This document shows, one piece after another, positions 2,472 through 17,537 of a stretch of 64,000 nucleotides of DNA. A program made the position numbers and the translations under genes. The notes below the pieces were generated by a model. That model was given only the letters and a program-made list of their open reading frames with translations. It was not told the origin of the DNA and did not search any database. Every line of letters begins with the position of its first letter. Position 1 is the stretch's first letter. Source of the stretch: Cyanobacteria bacterium CG_2015-22_32_23 (lineage in GTDB: Bacteria > Cyanobacteriota > Cyanobacteriia > Cyanobacteriales > Cyanobacteriaceae). The stretch spans positions 1-64,000 of the forward strand of contig JAACUG010000069.1 in assembly GCA_009993045.1 (NCBI GenBank), read 5' to 3'.

Positions 2472-3056
2472 ATGAAAAGAAATTTGGTAAAAAAAATGAG
2501 TAAACAAATTGAAGCCGAGAAAATTATTAGATCTCATGTACTTTGGGCTGTTGGTGGAGGATTGATACCAATACCATTAGTTGATTTTGCCGCCGTTACC
2601 GCTATTCAACTAGAAATGTTGCAACAATTAGCTAACCTTTATGAAGTTGATTACTCTCAAAATGTTGGTAAAAGTTTTGTATCAGCACTTACAGGCACAA
2701 CTATTGCTAGTATTGGGGCAAGTATGCTTAAAGCTATTCCGGGTATAGGCAGTATTGTCGGAGGAGTTTCGATGTCTGCCATGTCTGGAGCATCAACATA
2801 CGCCGTAGGACAAGTTGCAGTTAATATCTTTTCTGATTCGGGCTCATTAATCGATTTTAATATAGAAAGTGCAAAACAAGCCTATGAGTCTGCCTATGAA
2901 AAAGGAAAATCTTATGTGTCTGACTTAGAAGACAATAAAGCCAAAGCCGCTAATATTTATGAATCTTTGGAAAAATTAGGCAAATTGAAACAACAAGGAA
3001 TTTTATCCCAAGAGGAATTTGAAGCTAAGAAAAAAGAATTATTAGCTCGAATATAA
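2472..3056 (+). CDS. DUF697-like membrane-associated protein with C-terminal SHOCT domain
   Basis: The protein of 194 residues has a DUF697-type core (residues about 15-135): a glycine-rich hydrophobic segment with VGGGLIPIPLVD, followed by LKAIPGIGSIVGG, both typical of this family of membrane-associated proteins. The last 30 residues (LEKLGKLKQQGILSQEEFE onward) form a SHOCT short C-terminal helix-turn-helix. A second ATG nine codons in (2496) is an alternative start; no strong ribosome-binding site separates them. It is divergent from the Uma2-type gene. Molecular role is unknown. Confidence 0.75.
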   Translation: MKRNLVKKMSKQIEAEKIIRSHVLWAVGGGLIPIPLVDFAAVTAIQLEMLQQLANLYEVDYSQNVGKSFVSALTGTTIASIGASMLKAIPGIGSIVGGVSMSAMSGASTYAVGQVAVNIFSDSGSLIDFNIESAKQAYESAYEKGKSYVSDLEDNKAKAANIYESLEKLGKLKQQGILSQEEFEAKKKELLARI

Positions 3057-3154
3057 TAGGAGTTAGGAATAGTAAAATAAAAACTTGAGAGTTGTCTCTT
3101 CATTGATAAACAAGAAGTTTAAACAGGTTTTTACTTACTAATTCCTCATTACTT

Positions 3155-3177
3155 GGGTGAATGCCATTCACCCCTAC
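3155..3177. repeat. Dispersed GTAGGG-associated palindrome, copy 1
   Basis: GGGTGAAT and ATTCACCC form perfect 8-bp arms around a 3-nt GCC centre and are followed by CCTAC. It lies between the convergent DUF697 and gnd genes, so it may act as a stem-loop at both 3' ends. The same palindrome recurs at 62129-62147. Confidence 0.8.
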
Positions 3178-3184
3178 TTCCTCA

Positions 3185-4603
3185 TTAACCTATCCATTCG
3201 GTGTGGAAAAATTCACCTCGTGGTTTATCTGTACGCTCATAAGTGTGGGCACCAAAATAATCTCTTTGCGCTTGGGTGAGATTCTGAGGCAAACGTTCTT
3301 GTCTATAACTATCAAAGTAATTAAGAGAAGCACTAAAAGCAGGAACTGGAATCCCCATTTTATTGGCTAAAACTAAGACATCTCGCCACGCTTGTTGACG
3401 ATCAAGAATACTTTGTTTAAACTCAGAAGCTAGAAGTAAATTGGGCAAGTTAGGATTATCAGTAAAAGCTGTTTGAATTTTACCTAGAAAAGCCGCTTTG
3501 ATGATACAACCACCTTTCCAAATTCGGGCAATTTCAGGTAAATTAACGTTATAGTTATACTCCGATGAAGCCTTAGCAATTAAAGCCATACCTTGAGCAT
3601 AAGAACACATTTTTGAGCAATATAAAGCATCCCTAATTTTAGAAATATAGGTATCAACATCGCCATCAAATTTTGAGGTGATTCCTGTTAACTCCTTCGC
3701 TGCTAAAACTCGTTCTTCTTTGTAACTAGAAATAACTCTTGCATATACTGCCGCATAAATAGTAGGAATTGGCACTCCTAGTTGTAAAGAACTTACTACA
3801 GTCCAGCTTCCCGTACCTTTTTGCCCAGCAGCATCTACAATTAAATCAATTAAGTGTTTACCTGTTTCAGGATCTTTTTTCGGGAAAATATTGGCAGTAA
3901 TATCGATTAAGAAAGAATTTAACTCATCGGTAGTATTCCAATCCGTAAATACTTCTCCTAGCTTTTCATTACTCAATCCTAAGCCATTTTTCAATAAATC
4001 ATAAGCCTCTGCAATTAACTGCATATCGCCGTATTCAATGCCATTATGCACCATTTTGACGTAGTGACCTGCACCACGAGGACCAATATAAGTAACACAA
4101 GCACCATCATCTACTTGAGCGGCAATTTTGGTTAAAATCGGCTCTAATTCATGATAAGCGGCTTGAGTACCTCCGGGCATTAATGAAGGGCCATTTAAAG
4201 CACCTTCTTCGCCACCACTTACTCCCATACCCATAAACCCTAAACCAGTGGCTTCAAGCTCATTAGTACGTCTTTCTGTGTCTTCATAGAGGGAGTTACC
4301 ACCATCGATAATCATATCTCCTTCATCAAGTAACGGTTTAAGTTGTTGAATCACTGCATCTACGGGCGCACCAGCTTTTACCATTACTAATATTTTACGA
4401 GGGCGTTCGAGAGTTTGCACAAATTCTTCTAAAGAGTAAGCAGCTTTTACATCTTTACCTTGCGCTCGTGTTGCCATAAACTCTTCTGTTTTATTTGGGC
4501 TACGGTTATATACGGCGATGGGAAATCCTCTACTTTCGACGTTGAGGGCGAGATTTTCACCCATAACTGCTAATCCGATTACTCCAAAGGTTCTTTTTGT
4601 CAT
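3185..4603 (-). CDS. gnd: 6-phosphogluconate dehydrogenase, decarboxylating
   Basis: The 472-residue protein is 6-phosphogluconate dehydrogenase, which oxidises and decarboxylates 6-phosphogluconate to ribulose 5-phosphate with NADP, the third step of the oxidative pentose phosphate pathway. It has the N-terminal dinucleotide-binding motif [12 protein letters not shown] (residues 10-21), the substrate-binding VSGGEEGA near residue 130 and the catalytic segment [14 protein letters not shown] (about 180-193). The all-helical C-terminal domain with [12 protein letters not shown] is complete. Pgl, the preceding enzyme of the pathway, is encoded about 23 kb away. Confidence 0.97.
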
Positions 4604-4800
4604 AAATAATTCCGATCAAAATTGATTTATCTTTAGGTTAACTCGATCTTCTAATAATGGTTCACTAAAAAATTCTTAAGATTTATAAAATCAATACTTA
4701 TTAATCAAGCAAGTTGCAAGTTTCTTTCTATGATGAACTTTCGTGAACTATAAAAAACCTCAACAAATAAGGCTTTAAAAATAGTTACCTTCCAAATCTA

Positions 4801-4888
4801 TCTCCCCCTTTCCTTTCTAATTTCTAATTCCTAATTCCCCCTTTCCTTTCTAATTCCTAATTTCTAATTCCCCCTTTCCTTTCTAATT
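4801..4888. repeat. Heptanucleotide-type repeat array (CTAATTY) with CCCCTTTCCTTT blocks
   Basis: Units of CTAATTT and CTAATTC stand in tandem and alternate with three copies of a CCCCTTTCCTTT block, all within the gnd-proS intergenic region of about 360 bp. Apart from this array and the proS promoter region, nothing else was recognised in that gap. Confidence 0.75.
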
Positions 4889-4966
4889 TCCTCAGGGAAA
4901 ATTTTATAGTTTACTGGGCTGATAACAGTATAATCAAAGGTTGTGCTTTTATCTAAAATTTATATT

Positions 4967-6769
4967 ATGCGTTTATCTCAAATGTTATTGGTAACTTTGC
5001 GTGATGATCCTGCTGAGGCGGAAATTAAAAGTCATAAATTATTATTACGAGCAGGTTATATTCGTCGTATTGGTAGCGGTGTTTATGCTTATCTTCCTTT
5101 GATGTGGCGTGTTTTGCAAAAAATATCCCAAATTGTTCGAGAAGAAATGAATGCAACGGGAGCTCAAGAATGTTTATTACCTCAAATTCAACCAGCCGAA
5201 TTATGGCAAGAATCAGGGCGATGGGAGACTTATACTAAAGCTGAAGGTATTATGTTTTCTTTGGTAGATAGGCAACAACGAGAATTAGGTTTAGGTCCTA
5301 CCCATGAAGAAGTTATCACGGCGATCGCCAAAGATATGGTAAAATCTTATCGTCAGTTACCGACACATTTATATCAAATTCAAACTAAATTCAGAGATGA
5401 AATTCGCCCTCGTTTCGGGTTGATGCGCGGTAGAGAATTTATCATGAAAGATGGTTATTCTTTCCATAGTAGCGTGGAGAGTTTAAAAGAAACTTATCAA
5501 GATATGGATAAAGCCTATCGTAATATTTTTAGTCGTTGTGGTTTAAGTTTTCGGGCAGTGGAAGCAGACTCTGGAGCGATTGGTGGCTCTGGATCTCAGG
5601 AGTTTATGGTGTTAGCGGAAGCAGGAGAAGATGATATTGTTTATACTGCTGATGGTAAATATGCAGCCAACGTTGAAAAAGCCGTTTCTTTACCTGCAGA
5701 GGTGGTTAAATCTCCTTTTAATAGTTACGAAAAAAAAGCAACTCCGAATAGTGAAACTATTATTAAGGTAACAGAATTTTTAGGATGTTCAGCCACTAAT
5801 ATTGTTAAAAATGTTTTATATCAAGCCGTCTATGATTCAGGAAAAACAGTCTTAATTTTAGTAAATATTAGAGGAGATCAAGATGTCAATGAAGTTAAAT
5901 TAAATAATGAATTAGTCAAATTAGCTCCTAATTATCAAGCCAAAACTATCCTTAGTTTAACAGTTCCAGATCAAAATGCACAACAAAAATGGGCAACAAA
6001 TCCTTTACCTTTAGGTTATATTTCTCCTAATTTAAGTGATGATTATATTGCGAAATCTGACCAAATAGAAAGTACTTTTTTAAGAATGGCGGATAAAACC
6101 GTTGTAGATTTAGAAAATTTTGTCACGGGTGCTGATGAATCTGGTTATCATGTTATGGGTGCAAATTGGGGTAAAGAGTTTACCTTACCTTCTTTAATTG
6201 TTGATATTCGTAAAGCTAAAGTTGGCGATCGCGGGGTTCATGATTCTAGTCAAAGATTAGAAACCGCCAGAGGCATAGAAGTGGGGCATATTTTCCAATT
6301 AGGTACAAAATACTCTGAAGCCATGAATGCAACTTATACCGACGAAGATGGTACAGAGAAGCCTTTTGTCATGGGTTGTTATGGTATTGGAGTTTCTCGT
6401 TTAGCACAATCAGCCGTAGAACAATGTCATGATCAAGATGGTATAATCTGGCCTATTGCCATCGCACCTTACCATGTTACAATCGTTGTGCCAAATATTA
6501 CCGATGAAGGACAGATGAAAGTCGCTGAAAAACTATATCAAGAATTGAATCAAGCAGGAATTGAAGCCTTATTCGATGACAGAGACGAACGTGCTGGAGT
6601 AAAATTTAAAGACGCAGATTTAATTGGTATTCCTTATCGTATCGTGACAGGAAGATCTTTAAAAGAAGGAAAAGTAGAATTAGTAACAAGAAAGACAAAA
6701 GAATCTCAAAATATAGCTATCGAAGAAGTAGTGAAAATTTTGTTAGATAAACTCAAAAATAACTCATAA
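4967..6769 (+). CDS. proS: Prolyl-tRNA synthetase (bacterial type, with editing domain)
   Basis: The 600-residue product is a class IIa prolyl-tRNA synthetase charging tRNA-Pro. The N-terminal catalytic core carries class II motif 2 ([19 protein letters not shown], near residues 136-154). An inserted INS editing domain (about 225-395) is followed by motif 3 ([10 protein letters not shown]) and a C-terminal anticodon-binding domain ([11 protein letters not shown] onward). The ATG chosen gives the family N-terminus [15 protein letters not shown]; an in-frame GTG eight codons upstream (4943) is less likely. Confidence 0.97.
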
Positions 6770-11901: not shown

Positions 11902-14523
11902 ATGATTAATAAATGGCGAAATTGGTTAAAATCTCAACATTTTGGAAAACGAGCTATTTCTACTCGTTATGCTTTAATAGAAGCCTGTTTAATTGGGATT
12001 TTTTCCGCCTTAGCGGCACTTTTATTAAAACAAGGTATTAATTTATTAGGTAGTTATCGCTTACAATTAGTTGATCGTTGGAGTGCGATCGCCATCTTAC
12101 CATTATTTGGCTTAATTTTTGGTGGATTAGCAGGGTTGTTAGTAGAAAATGTATCTCCAACGGCAGCAGGAGGAGGTATCCCCCAAGTAAAAGCAGCCTT
12201 AGCTAGATACAAAATACCCCTATCTTTACGAGTAGCGGTAGTTAAGATTATAGGCACAATTCTGGTTTTAGGCTCTGGTTTAACTTTAGGGCGTCGTGCG
12301 CCAACTGTCCATATAGGAGCGGCTTTAGCAGGAGAATTAACCCGTTTTGTACCGACTTCTCCCGAACATAGAAGACAAATGATAGCAGCGGGGGCGGCTG
12401 CAGGATTAGCAGCAGGGTTTAATACCCCCATCGCTGGGGTGATGTTTGTGGTAGAAGAGTTGATGAGAGATATTTCTAACTTAACCCTTGAAACAGCTAT
12501 TGTCGCCTCATTTACTGGGGCGGTGGTGTCATTAATTTTACAGTCTCCTAACTTAAACTTACCTGAAAGTATTATATCCATTGAGAATCTTACTTTTTCT
12601 CCCTCTGATATTCCTTTTTATCTGCTGTTAGGTATTCTCGCAGGAATTTTAGGAGCAGTTTTTAACCGTAGTGTCTTATTCAGTGTTAAATGGAATGATA
12701 AACTAAAAATACCCTTATCTGTGCGTATTGGGGTAGCTGGGTTAATTTCTGGCCTAATTATCGCCTTTTTACCGCCTTTTTTTCGGGATAACGCCGGATT
12801 AAAAGATTTTGTGATTCGTGGAGAATTAAGTTGGCAACAAACCGCTTTAGCATTTTTAGCCCATTATATCTTAACCATTCTAGCGGCAGGATCTGGTGCA
12901 CCCGGGGGATTATTTGCACCAGCATTGATTATGGGCTCAGCTTTAGGTTATTTAGTGGGAGATTTTGAAGGCTATATTTCAGGGGGTGAAAGGATTTCAA
13001 CTTTTGCCTTAGTGGGTATGGGGGCATTATTTACAGGAGTTGTCAGAGTTCCCATTACTGCCATTATGATTGTATTCGAGTTGAATGCTAATTTTAATTT
13101 AGTATTACCTTTGATGATTACTTGTGCAGTGGCTTATATTAGTGCCGAAACCTTTGAAAATGGCTCAGTATATCAACATTTATTGCGTAGTATGGGCATT
13201 GAATTAGAAAAAGAAGATAACAATACTCAAAACAATTTTTTAACTCATTTAACTGCCGCCGATGTGATGGAATCTCAGGTAGAAACCGTTACCGCAAATC
13301 TATCCATATCGGAATTATTAGAATTGATGACGACATCCCATCATCGAGGTTTTCCCGTGGTCGAAAATGGTGACATCGTAGGTATTGTTACTCAATCAGA
13401 TTTAGTCAAAGCAGAGACTTTTAATCCAGAGATTACCATTGATGAGATTATGACAAGAAATCCTATCACCGTCAAAAAAAATGTTCCTCTCAGTGATGTG
13501 TTATATCTTCTTAATCGTTATCAATTATCCCGTTTACCCGTTTTACACGATAATCGTCTAGTGGGAATTATCACTCGTACTGATATTATTCGAGTAGAGG
13601 TAAATGAGTTAAAAGCTGATGTCTTGACGAAATCTCAACCTGCTTATACTATTTATAAAACCCGTTCACCAGCCACAGGTAAAGGGCGTATATTAGTGCC
13701 AATAGAAGAAGATGACGATTTTAAAGCCTTATCAAAAATAGCTCTATCCATTGCTCGTTATTATCAATATGAGATAGAATTTGTACAGGTGATAAAAGTA
13801 GCGAAACATCAAAATCCCAGTACCGTTAAAGTTGATAAAAAAAATGCTCGTCATCTCATGCAAAATTTAGAGACCATGGGCAGGAAAGCGAAAATATCTG
13901 TACATACAAGCATAGTAGTAGGACATTATCGCAGTCAAATAATTTTAGACATCCTCCAACAACGACACATTAACTTATTAGTGATGGGATGGAAACAAAA
14001 TTTTTATGGACAAGAATTCGTTTTTTCCCAATTAATTGACAGTTTAATTAATCAGGCAACTTGTGAATTAATTTTAATTAGACTAGGCAAAAATAAGCAG
14101 TTTTATCCTTATAATATAAATTCTATTGGTAGTTGTTTAATACCTACTGCTGGAGGTCCAAATGCAGAAGAAGGTTTAAAATTATTACCTGCTTTTTTAG
14201 ATATTTATAAAGAAGGAAAATTACCTCCAGTTTGGCTAACAAAAGTCTATTCACCAGAAGCAAAAAACTTTGATAGTAATCAACTATTTACTACTACGAA
14301 AAAATTGCAAAATTTACTCAAAACTGAAGTAAAATCTTTAACCGTTTGTTCAAATTCTGTGGTGTCAGCTATTATTCAATTAGCGGAAATACAAAAATCT
14401 GAGTTAGTCATTTTAGGAGCATCTCGTGATAGTTTATTAAAACAAGCGTGGTATGGCAATATACCTGAATCTATTACATCTAAACTAGATACAACGGTAA
14501 TCATTATTCGTCTTCCCTCTTGA
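11902..14523 (+). CDS. ClC-type chloride channel/transporter fused to CBS pair and two USP domains
   Basis: The 873-residue protein starts with a complete ClC membrane domain (residues about 20-425). The ion-path motifs are GGGIPQVK (91-97), GRRAPTVHIG (130-139) and GAPGGLFAP (about 332-340). A CBS pair follows (about 450-565; SHHRGFPVVENGDIVGIV and LSRLPVLHDNRLVGIITR), then two universal-stress-protein-like domains (about 590-725 and 735-873). In CLC-ec1 the second motif reads GREGP; here Arg132 replaces the gating Glu, whereas the internal Glu pair FVVEEL (185-186) is kept. It could therefore work as a passive channel; CBS and USP parts suggest nucleotide control. Confidence 0.93.
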   Translation: MINKWRNWLKSQHFGKRAISTRYALIEACLIGIFSALAALLLKQGINLLGSYRLQLVDRWSAIAILPLFGLIFGGLAGLLVENVSPTAAGGGIPQVKAALARYKIPLSLRVAVVKIIGTILVLGSGLTLGRRAPTVHIGAALAGELTRFVPTSPEHRRQMIAAGAAAGLAAGFNTPIAGVMFVVEELMRDISNLTLETAIVASFTGAVVSLILQSPNLNLPESIISIENLTFSPSDIPFYLLLGILAGILGAVFNRSVLFSVKWNDKLKIPLSVRIGVAGLISGLIIAFLPPFFRDNAGLKDFVIRGELSWQQTALAFLAHYILTILAAGSGAPGGLFAPALIMGSALGYLVGDFEGYISGGERISTFALVGMGALFTGVVRVPITAIMIVFELNANFNLVLPLMITCAVAYISAETFENGSVYQHLLRSMGIELEKEDNNTQNNFLTHLTAADVMESQVETVTANLSISELLELMTTSHHRGFPVVENGDIVGIVTQSDLVKAETFNPEITIDEIMTRNPITVKKNVPLSDVLYLLNRYQLSRLPVLHDNRLVGIITRTDIIRVEVNELKADVLTKSQPAYTIYKTRSPATGKGRILVPIEEDDDFKALSKIALSIARYYQYEIEFVQVIKVAKHQNPSTVKVDKKNARHLMQNLETMGRKAKISVHTSIVVGHYRSQIILDILQQRHINLLVMGWKQNFYGQEFVFSQLIDSLINQATCELILIRLGKNKQFYPYNINSIGSCLIPTAGGPNAEEGLKLLPAFLDIYKEGKLPPVWLTKVYSPEAKNFDSNQLFTTTKKLQNLLKTEVKSLTVCSNSVVSAIIQLAEIQKSELVILGASRDSLLKQAWYGNIPESITSKLDTTVIIIRLPS

Positions 14524-14835
14524 CAAAATGCAAGTTAAACGGGTATGGTCGCTCGTAGCACTTTTCCTAATTTTAGGCTAACATTAAATGCTAATTTAGT
14601 ATAGTATAATAAACTATTGGTTTAGAGATTTAATGTATTCTTTATGTTTGTCATAGTTTACAATCTTCAATAAAATTTGATTTTCTTGATCTAGAATAAT
14701 AGCGATCGCTTTTTTCAAGGGAGTTTGCAGTGCGTGCAGCGTACCCATTGCTTTTTAATATTGTAAAGTATATATAATAATAGTATAGTGATCGTTTTTA
14801 GGATTAACCAATTATTAACAAGTAAAAGTCAGACT

Positions 14836-15096
14836 ATGTTAAAAACTTTTAACGCTATTTTGAAAAACAATTCTATTCAATGACTTGATGAAACTCCCAA
14901 AATAGAAGCAAATACGTCTGTAAAGGTCTATGTTACTTTATTGGAAGAAATGACAATAAATCAAACTAAATCTAATGGTCAAAAAATGGCAGAAGCCTTA
15001 AGTAAAATCTCTAAAAATAATATTTTTGCTAATATTAACCCCGAAAAATGGCAACAAGAAACACGTCAAGATCGTCTCCTTCCTAATCGTGATTAA
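14836..15096 (+). pseudogene. VapB-like antitoxin gene interrupted by an in-frame TGA
   Basis: An 87-codon frame reads MLKTFNAILKNNSIQ, then TGA at 14881-14883, then LDETPKIEANTSVKVYV and so on to QETRQDRLLPNRD and a normal stop. In related cyanobacterial antitoxins this position is usually Trp, so a TGG to TGA change is likely. The stop of the frame is 3 nt before the toxin ATG, the usual antitoxin-toxin spacing. An in-frame ATG at 14950 could still make a 48-residue C-terminal fragment, the part that normally binds the toxin. Assignment to the VapB group rests on the partner gene. Confidence 0.75.
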
Positions 15097-15099
15097 AAT

Positions 15100-15675
15100 A
15101 TGTTACTTGATAGCAATATTATCATTTATGCTGCACAGCAAGAAAATGAATTTTTAAGGGAATTCATTACTAATAATTCTCCTTATATATCTGCTCTTTC
15201 TTATCTGGAAGTATTAGGTTATCATCAATTAACTGATGAAGATAAAACCTATTTTGAGGAATTTTTTAATGCTTCTCAAATTTTACCAATTTCTCAAGCT
15301 GTAATTGATCAAGCAGTGAGACTAAAACAAATTAGAAGAATGTGTTTAGGAGACGCTATTATTGCAGGTACAGCGAAGATTTATGATTTAACTGGTAATA
15401 AACTTAGACCCGCTTTAGTTATTGCTATCCATCGAGAAGAAACCATTATTGTAGGAATATTCTCAAAAATACCTAATGAAAATTTACGAGAAACTTGGGT
15501 TCTGGTTTCTGATCAAGATGCTAAGTTTAAAGAAACTGGACTTAAGAAAAGTTCATTAATCAGAGCGGATAAAATAGCAACAGTTAATGAAGTTGTTTTT
15601 CAAAGAAAATTAGGGGTTTTATCATTAGAATTAATTGAAAAGGTAAATTTTATATTAGTGATGATGACTATTTAA
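15100..15675 (+). CDS. Chimeric toxin: VapC PIN-domain N-terminus fused in frame to a MazF/PemK C-terminus
   Basis: Residues 1-98 of this 191-residue protein are a VapC PIN domain: Asp4 in MLLDSN, Glu37 in SYLEVLG and Asp85 in CLGDAIIAGTA. The usual PIN end with its last acidic residue (a TRNxxDF-like segment) is missing. From DLTGNKLRPALVI (96-108) the protein reads as a MazF/PemK toxin: Arg103 at the catalytic Arg place, then WVLVSDQD, FKETGLKKSS and KLGVLSLELIEKV. The first MazF strands are missing. Both families commonly carry Asp-Leu-Thr at this point, so the join may be a microhomology deletion. The last 10 residues run out of frame into a third toxin-antitoxin remnant. Activity is doubtful. 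Confidence 0.8.
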   Translation: MLLDSNIIIYAAQQENEFLREFITNNSPYISALSYLEVLGYHQLTDEDKTYFEEFFNASQILPISQAVIDQAVRLKQIRRMCLGDAIIAGTAKIYDLTGNKLRPALVIAIHREETIIVGIFSKIPNENLRETWVLVSDQDAKFKETGLKKSSLIRADKIATVNEVVFQRKLGVLSLELIEKVNFILVMMTI

Positions 15676-15764
15676 AATCCCTCTCAGGAATGGTTGAAAG
15701 CATCAAAGAAGCTAGAAAAGAACCAATTGAAAATAGTGTTACCTTAGATGAATTAGATTGGTAA
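15648..15764 (+). pseudogene. Phd/YefM-type antitoxin remnant (C-terminal end only)
   Basis: In a different frame from the chimera, the DNA encodes SDDDYLKSLSGMVESIKEA and continues to SVTLDELDW before a stop. This resembles the C-terminus of Phd/YefM antitoxins paired with RelE/YoeB toxins. Upstream of the segment the frame is closed, so the N-terminal DNA-binding part is gone. Its stop codon overlaps the ATG of the following toxin remnant (TAATG), which preserves the operon junction. Confidence 0.65.
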
Positions 15765-15942
15765 TGTATAAGATAATTTTTATGACACAAGCACAGAAAG
15801 ATGCGAAAAATTTATCTTCTAGTGGATTGAAACAAAAAACATTGAAATTAATTGAAATTATAAGCAACATCGGTTAGTTTATGAAGTCATTGAAAAAGAA
15901 AAATTGATTAAAATATATCGGATGTGGAGTCACTACGAGTAG
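15764..15942 (+). pseudogene. RelE/YoeB-family toxin remnant with internal deletion and frameshift
   Basis: The start reads MYKIIFMTQAQKDAKN and SSGLKQKTLKLIEII, typical of RelE/YoeB-like toxins, then meets a stop. Shifted into another frame, the DNA resumes as QHRLVYEVIEKEKLIKIYR and ends in MWSHYE, the usual C-terminus of this family. The middle part, normally containing the LxGxxxGxxSRR region, is deleted. The gene is therefore dead, along with its antitoxin remnant. The 90 bp after it lead to brnT. Confidence 0.75.
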
Positions 15943-16031
15943 TGTAGTGAATTTTAGAAAGGCGATCGATCTTTTGGAGAGTTTTGAGGTACGATCATTG
16001 ATAATAAGTTTATTATTATTTGCCTTTATGT

Positions 16032-16304
16032 ATGAAATTTGAATGGGATCAACAAAAAGCAAAATTAAATTTATCAAAACATGGTATTTCATTTGAAGAA
16101 GCTCAAACTGTTTTTGATGATCCACTATATGTTGATTTTTATGATCCAGATCACTCAAAAAATGAAGATCGTTATATTATTTTAGGAGAATCATCAAACA
16201 GTCGTGTTTTGTTAGTCTCTTATACTGAAAGAGGCGATAAAATTAGACTTATTAGTGCTAGACAAGTTACCAAACAAGAATTAATTGCTTATCAAGAGAG
16301 ATAA
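16032..16304 (+). CDS. brnT: BrnT-family toxin (DUF497)
   Basis: The 90-residue protein begins MKFEWDQQKAKLNLSKHGIS and continues FEEAQTVFDDP, the BrnT signature; it ends with ISARQVTKQEL, which holds the conserved Arg of the RelE-like ribonuclease fold. BrnT toxins cleave RNA and are neutralised by BrnA. ATG at 16032 is preferred over an in-frame TTG four codons upstream because it gives the family N-terminus. The antitoxin gene starts 4 nt after its stop, giving the toxin-first order typical of this system. Length is normal and no damage is seen. Confidence 0.9.
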   Translation: MKFEWDQQKAKLNLSKHGISFEEAQTVFDDPLYVDFYDPDHSKNEDRYIILGESSNSRVLLVSYTERGDKIRLISARQVTKQELIAYQER

Positions 16305-16308
16305 AATA

Positions 16309-16512
16309 ATGGAAGATCAACTTAGAGAGGAATATGATTTAAAAACTTTAAAAGTTAGAAAAATAGGAGCTAAACGCCAAAAATTTGGTGATAATATTAT
16401 TAAATTAGATTCAGATGTTGCCGAAGTTTTTTCCAATGCGGAATCTGTTAATGAAGCACTAAGATTTTTAATTAGAATTACCAAAGAAAATAAAGATCAA
16501 GTTATATTTTGA
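16309..16512 (+). CDS. brnA: BrnA-like antitoxin
   Basis: The 67-residue protein (MEDQLREEYDLKTLKVRKIG onward) has a basic first half and a C-terminal LDSDVAEVFSNAESVNEALR motif, which resembles the ribbon-helix-helix DNA-binding end of antitoxins encoded after DUF497 toxins. Its place 4 nt after brnT supports pairing. The ATG is chosen because an upstream TTG would overlap the toxin gene. It probably represses the operon together with BrnT. Confidence 0.8.
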   Translation: MEDQLREEYDLKTLKVRKIGAKRQKFGDNIIKLDSDVAEVFSNAESVNEALRFLIRITKENKDQVIF

Positions 16513-16585: not shown

Positions 16586-17014
16586 TTAGCAAATTAACTC
16601 AATCGGTAAATTATCAGTATCGGCAATAAAAGCCACTTCATAAACTTTATTACCAATCATTTGTTGTTGGGGTGGTAATAAGATTTTCAGAGGAGAAATT
16701 AAAGCAGGATTTTGATAATTACCTTCTTCAAATTTAGATTTTAATTGTTGTAACCATTGAGGTAAACTCATTTCACCATCTCCCACATCAAGACAAAAGT
16801 GATAATAACCAACATAATGTTCATCATAAAAGGCATCAGGAGAAGGTTTTGGTTCGGGTATTTGCATTAATTCGAGTCGGTTGCCTAATCCTTCTAACCA
16901 ACAAGCTAAAGTATAACCAGTGGTGAATCTTTCCTTAACACTAAACCCTAATAATTCATAAAATGCGATCGCTTTCATTATATCGGCTGTACGAATAGAA
17001 ATATGGTGTATCAT
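16586..17014 (-). CDS. VOC-family (glyoxalase/bleomycin resistance-like) protein
   Basis: The 142-residue protein has the vicinal-oxygen-chelate fold: MIHHISIRTADIMKAIAFYE at the start with a likely metal-binding His, GYTLACWLEGLGNRLELMQ in the middle (Glu ligand) and HFCLDVGDGEMSLPQWLQ in the second module. VOC proteins include glyoxalases, dioxygenases and binding proteins, so the reaction is unknown. ATG at 17014 gives the family start; ATG at 17023 or TTG at 17035 are alternatives. It lies immediately after the zinc-ribbon gene on the same strand and is probably translated from the same mRNA. Confidence 0.85.
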   Translation of the reverse strand: MIHHISIRTADIMKAIAFYELLGFSVKERFTTGYTLACWLEGLGNRLELMQIPEPKPSPDAFYDEHYVGYYHFCLDVGDGEMSLPQWLQQLKSKFEEGNYQNPALISPLKILLPPQQQMIGNKVYEVAFIADTDNLPIELIC

Positions 17015-17027
17015 AAACTTCATCAAT

Positions 17028-17537
17028 TTATTCAAATAAACGAAAATAAGGATAACGAGAAGGTGTACCTTTTTCCTTTTCTAAGATAAAATTAACAATT
17101 TCCCAACAAGGATCATCATTAGATTTACCACTAAATTCTACAGGTAAGCCATATAATTTATATACCTTATATTCTTGATCTCCAGTCCAACTATTACCTT
17201 TTTCTAAATAAGAACTAATTAAACCAGAATAACGTTCAGCTATAATGACTTTTGTGGCGCGATAGCCTTCGGTATAAAGCCTGTCTAAAGCCTCGTGAAT
17301 TTCAAATCGAATGCCATCGGGATGACTATGCTGTCGATACCATTTTTCTTCCCATAATCGCCAATGCCTACCTGATTGTAAATGTACTAAAATCTTTGTA
17401 TTTGGATCAGCTTCAAAAACACCATGACGAGGACATAAATAAGAGTCGGTAAGGGTTAATGCTTCTATTATTTGACGACAATGAGGACATTTAATTTCTG
17501 GGCCAAAAATAGGATACTGTAAATTAAGATCAGTCAT
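17028..17537 (-). CDS. Conserved cyanobacterial protein with N-terminal zinc-ribbon-like motif (TIGR02652-like)
   Basis: The 169-residue protein begins with a CPHCRQIIEALTLTDSYLCP segment, a possible C-x2-C...C zinc site with a nearby His (PRHG). It continues with HLQSGRHWRLWEEKWYRQH and ends with GTPSRYPYFRLFE. It resembles a family conserved in cyanobacteria and catalogued as TIGR02652; that assignment is from memory of the family. No activity is known. The VOC gene follows with almost no gap. Confidence 0.7.
   Translation of the reverse strand: MTDLNLQYPIFGPEIKCPHCRQIIEALTLTDSYLCPRHGVFEADPNTKILVHLQSGRHWRLWEEKWYRQHSHPDGIRFEIHEALDRLYTEGYRATKVIIAERYSGLISSYLEKGNSWTGDQEYKVYKLYGLPVEFSGKSNDDPCWEIVNFILEKEKGTPSRYPYFRLFE

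Follow-up and report, generated by a model that had tools for sequence, protein, structure and literature searches.

At positions 15100-15675 on the forward strand of the window (the whole 64,000-nucleotide stretch of contig JAACUG010000069.1 that was analysed), a single open frame of 191 codons without internal stop joins VapC residues 1-98 in frame to MazF/PemK residues 17-107. The vapC (PIN) part (15100-15393, forward strand) is identified by Pfam and by relatives of up to 87% identity, and the mazF (PemK) part (15385-15650, forward strand) corresponds to MazF residues 17 to about 105 and is 65-76% identical to intact MazFs. Pfam places PIN (PF01850) at chimera residues 1-97 (E 1.2e-7, profile positions 1-105 of 120, 32.8 bits against a curated cut-off of 23.6) and PemK_toxin (PF02452) at residues 100-183 (E 3.1e-7, profile positions 19-102 of 109, 31.0 bits against a curated cut-off of 23.1). 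Both domains are recovered, above their cut-offs, whether the whole frame or each half separately is used as the query. When 391 genomes of the same order were searched in six frames, the VapC half found relatives, up to 87% identical, whose match ends at chimera residue 98; the MazF half found relatives, up to 76% identical, whose match starts at residues 94-96 and spans residues 94-186. DNA alignment resolves the region as a mosaic of vapBC (14809-15394, about 85% match to locus L055), mazF (15380-15650, 82% match to L033; the mazF of L032 matches at 86% over 15379-15626), relB/relE (15651-15848) and remaining relE (15860-15940). The same cut point emerges from Pfam, the 391-genome protein search and the DNA alignments, which bear out the uninterrupted VapC::MazF frame described in an earlier note on this DNA: the chimera is real, with two unrelated toxin genes in one frame.

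Upstream lies a vapB antitoxin gene remnant (14836-15096, forward strand) of 86 codons, with full-length relatives 58-74% identical. Its codon 16 (14881-14883), which encodes Trp in relatives, is an in-frame TGA, and an intact co-encoded VapB is therefore absent from the locus; translation could conceivably restart within vapB, whose second half is open. Relatives of this vapB lie directly upstream of vapC in seven loci (L021, L022, L023, L024, L026, L029 and L007). PIN toxins depend on four clustered acidic residues (PMC3834315), of which D4, E37 and D85 are present in the VapC half; the fourth position is gone, together with the last PIN strand and about 25 C-terminal residues that include TRNxxDF. 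Residues T101, R102, N103, D106, F107 and W109 and the NPF motif, invariant in all 11 VapC relatives aligned, are missing from the chimera, and this alignment agrees with the earlier description of three retained acidic residues and a missing last strand. The C-terminal half of the frame is not a normal VapC end, as intact VapC relatives instead run into the conserved TRNxxDF...NPF.

The MazF half has no start codon of its own, no strand 1 (IWLVSFPF) and no last residues. Intact MazF relatives open with a conserved IWLVxFxFS strand, which occupies residues 7-11 in the predicted intact relative and is absent from the chimera; the beta-barrel lacks this strand together with half of the beta1-beta2 loop, which in MazF is one of the main points of contact with MazE (PMC7354611). 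Catalytic Arg and Thr/Ser residues are required in MazF (PMC7354611), and their counterparts Arg103 and Ser122 are kept and align with invariant residues. The earlier observation that the MazF Arg remains and the first MazF strands are missing is thus confirmed, the loss being strand 1 plus half of the beta1-beta2 loop. A mazE gene lies beside intact mazF relatives and is absent from the chimera locus. The only other match in the genome to either piece of the chimera is a mazF on contig C117 (67% identical), part of an intact mazEF relative with MazE present; it was considered as the source of the MazF part and ruled out, its protein identity being 67% versus 76% for mazF genes of other genera. 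Among the best matches listed, the strongest MazF-family matches of the order are ordinary frames of 105-139 codons.

The vapC/mazF join falls in an 11-bp segment (TGATTTAACTG, 15384-15394, forward strand) common to the closest vapC (L055, L025) and mazF (L032) relatives. The shared DNA is 11 bp with these relatives and 6-11 bp for other relative pairs, values estimated from relatives as the actual parent genes are gone. The Asp-Leu-Thr that the earlier note had the two parts share lies at 15385-15393 as it reported, within this somewhat longer stretch of shared DNA. The position of the join comes from the alignment, and a microhomology deletion would fit it. The proposal that such a deletion fused neighbouring toxin genes is borne out as regards the microhomology at the join; the neighbourhood finds no parallel, since in none of the relatives' loci examined does vapC lie beside mazF, and genomes in the 391-genome search that contain both carry them far apart or on separate contigs. 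It is plausible that vapC and mazF were once neighbours.

A second join lies at 15650/15651 (forward strand), where the 3' part of mazF passes into relB from about codon 36. Similarity to relB starts at 15651, the position at which the relB/relE match begins both in L053 (genome G013) and in an Annamia dubia plasmid. The join is out of the relB frame, and the chimeric frame stops in relB DNA at 15673-15675; its last residues, FILVMMTI, are out-of-frame relB DNA and not MazF. The MazF identity previously assigned from residue 96 onward accordingly stands up to 15650 and fails for these residues. The relB antitoxin 3' part (15651-15764, forward strand; about residues 36-72) has no start of its own and is followed by a relE toxin remnant (15764-15942, forward strand), which, by comparison with the 86-aa relE that is intact on Annamia dubia plasmid AP025633, has lost about 82 bp from its middle and is broken in frame. 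The same 1.1 kb thus holds, as further lesions, the mazF::relB joint, the frame-breaking deletion in relE and the vapB stop, and complete copies of vapB, vapC, mazE, mazF, relB and relE have all been lost from the locus. Elsewhere, L053 (G013:C1:990000-998000) contains relBE and mazEF head to head at 3161-4103, its relE also frameshifted, and in L099 (G001:C1:3401800-3404900, 1435-1653) relB ends after about residue 39 and is followed by unrelated sequence.

The decayed cluster is flanked by a ClC channel gene (11902-14523) and a glyoxalase-like gene (16586-17035). Relatives have retained both genes, but separated by 100 kb or more or located on other contigs, so the intervening stretch is variable and specific to this genome. 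Directly behind the cluster, the brnT toxin gene (16030-16302) is intact; within 16030-16511 it is followed by a small gene in the antitoxin position. An ancestral vapBC-mazEF-relBE row was not found among the relatives examined; in G013 relBE adjoins mazEF, but in divergent orientation, and on the Annamia dubia plasmid the neighbour of relBE is an unrelated PIN gene.

Orthologous hybrids in related genomes, or a family of full-length homologues, had been suggested as a check on the chimera. None was found in the six-frame search of the 391 genomes, in a pattern scan of genome contigs that included the junction peptide IYDLTGNK, on plasmids (where the MazF half alone was matched, in Planktothrix) or in phages; close relatives of the vapC or mazF parents were likewise not found on the viral contigs searched, nor was a VapC-MazF fusion found in the literature searched. 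One candidate second hybrid, G260:C752, which matched over residues 71-183, proved to be a plain mazF, and the few longer alignments, where checked, turned out to be mazF genes aligned along with DNA upstream of them, or weak matches interrupted by many stops.

AlphaFold2 modelled the intact MazF relative with a pLDDT of 91.7, and its best PDB matches were MazF structures. The chimera gave a mean pLDDT of 47.3, with values mostly of 43-68 in the MazF part, which alone is informative: there the homologues aligned were mostly those also used for the control, whereas no homologue of the VapC half entered the alignment and the low pLDDT of that half carries no information. Given the loss of the last PIN strand and the fourth acidic position, and of the first MazF strand and half of the beta1-beta2 loop, the product is probably unable to fold or to cut RNA. 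Compared pairwise with relatives, both halves have a dN/dS of about 0.09-0.31, similar to values among intact relatives, although these figures are largely a record of evolution that preceded the join. Differences seen in the chimera alone are few (7 synonymous and 11 replacement in the VapC half; 6 and 7, respectively, in the MazF half), too small a number to demonstrate relaxed selection.

We interpret the chimeric frame as a pseudogene that arose through decay of a toxin-antitoxin row (vapBC, mazEF, relBE), with a probability of about 0.86; the earlier note had allowed that the gene may be dead, and this is the option that the data now favour. A deletion at the 11-bp microhomology would have removed the end of vapC, mazE and mazF up to codon 16, a second deletion would have fused the mazF end with mid-relB sequence, and a third would have broken relE, while vapB gained its stop, a loss that was presumably tolerated because VapC activity had gone. 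The vapC/mazF join stayed in frame, a chance of about one in three, leaving one 191-codon frame. The locus has the marks of a pseudogene formed by deletion, namely truncated relatives of intact genes, nearby lesions and no hybrid orthologue in the collections searched; counting against this reading are a frame without stop, a dN/dS like that of intact relatives (subject to the reservation given above) and the retention of three PIN acidic residues and both MazF catalytic residues.

Some of these features would also suit a working chimera, that is, an RNase or a decoy able to titrate antitoxin (the MazE of the C117 mazEF, or a VapB), and the frame is indeed open, keeps MazF Arg103/Ser122 and PIN D4/E37/D85, and has in the intact mazEF relative of the genome a MazE to bind. 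However, both folds have lost core strands, the model is of low confidence against a confident control, half of the loop that forms a major MazE contact (PMC7354611) is gone, no orthologue was found in the genomes searched, and the genome has no second vapBC of this close family whose VapB could be titrated. With the vapB stop and the two additional deletions, this disfavours the new hybrid RNase or antitoxin decoy put forward in the earlier note, which we regard as improbable. Fainter still is the prospect that the chimera is expressed and still binds MazE (of the C117 mazEF) or RNA as a new regulatory protein; were the chimera active, it would represent a kind of toxin-toxin fusion not found in the literature searched. 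The VapC part alone might be partly folded and bind VapB, with the MazF tail as ballast, considering that residues 1-98 are up to 87% identical to relatives and that the open second half of vapB could permit an internal restart, but the conserved C-terminal TRNxxDF strand is missing and vapB is stopped at codon 16, which makes this the least probable of the readings considered.

An assembly error between two separate loci could likewise produce such a join, and the draft nature of the genome (142 contigs) and the absence of the join from every other genome searched would be compatible with it. Against this, the locus lies inside a 93.5-kb contig, no long repeat is present at the joins, and the genome has no second copy of either piece (the other match being the 67% identical mazF). 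The junction overlaps, 11 bp at the first and a few bp at most at the second, are below usual assembly overlaps, and two joins plus the relE deletion would require several independent errors. We therefore consider an assembly error, which needs several joins of about 11 bp or less overlap within that contig, unlikely.

The chimera thus appears to be an ordinary case of decay, whose one unusual feature is that each partner is a toxin. As a product it is of little importance, and its value lies in illustrating the decay of a toxin-antitoxin row: short-homology deletions may leave unique in-frame hybrids, which annotation pipelines could mistake for new multidomain toxins. Among about 50 relatives of the VapC half in the 391-genome search, about 14 look cut, stopped or interrupted (manual count). 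L050 (G293:C1:917500-925500) carries two vapBC copies 2 kb apart (2697-3062 and 4776-5378), one being an in-frame VapB::VapC with VapB 1-24 joined to VapC from residue 15, and the other, fuller copy having a vapC that stops at DDFR. The 137-codon VapB::PIN::XisH frame of L049 (G161:C1:1132500-1135500, 1195-1608) starts with VapB 1-36, continues with a VapC stretch that runs from around residue 50 as far as DDFR, and ends in the C-terminal portion of XisH; the xisI gene that follows is intact. In L048 (G174:C1:1232000-1235500, 270-1862), an IS605-type tnpB is inserted in vapC, and its frame continues with no stop into the VapC sequence at about residue 11, to give 530 aa. Long frames were deliberately sought, and the share of in-frame joins therefore does not represent a rate.

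Compared with the VapC type II toxins (PF01850), the chimera is alike in its N-terminal 98 residues, with D4, E37 and D85, and in the vapB-like gene upstream, and differs in lacking the last strand and TRNxxDF and in the stop within vapB. It resembles the MazF/PemK type II toxins (PF02452), whose relatives have a predicted MazF fold, in MazF residues 17 to about 105 and the catalytic Arg and Ser, but has no start of its own, no strand 1 and no mazE, and its C-terminal residues are replaced. The decayed vapC genes of L048, L049 and L050 are similar in that a truncated vapC is joined in frame, each in one genome, although their partners are vapB, xisH or tnpB rather than a second toxin. Slr1999 of Synechocystis 6803, reported as a unique fusion of HicA with HicB and interpreted as a one-off gene fusion (PMC4963859), is likewise a case of toxin-antitoxin genes fused in a single cyanobacterial genome, but unites the toxin and antitoxin of one module, whereas the chimera described here unites two truncated toxins from different modules.
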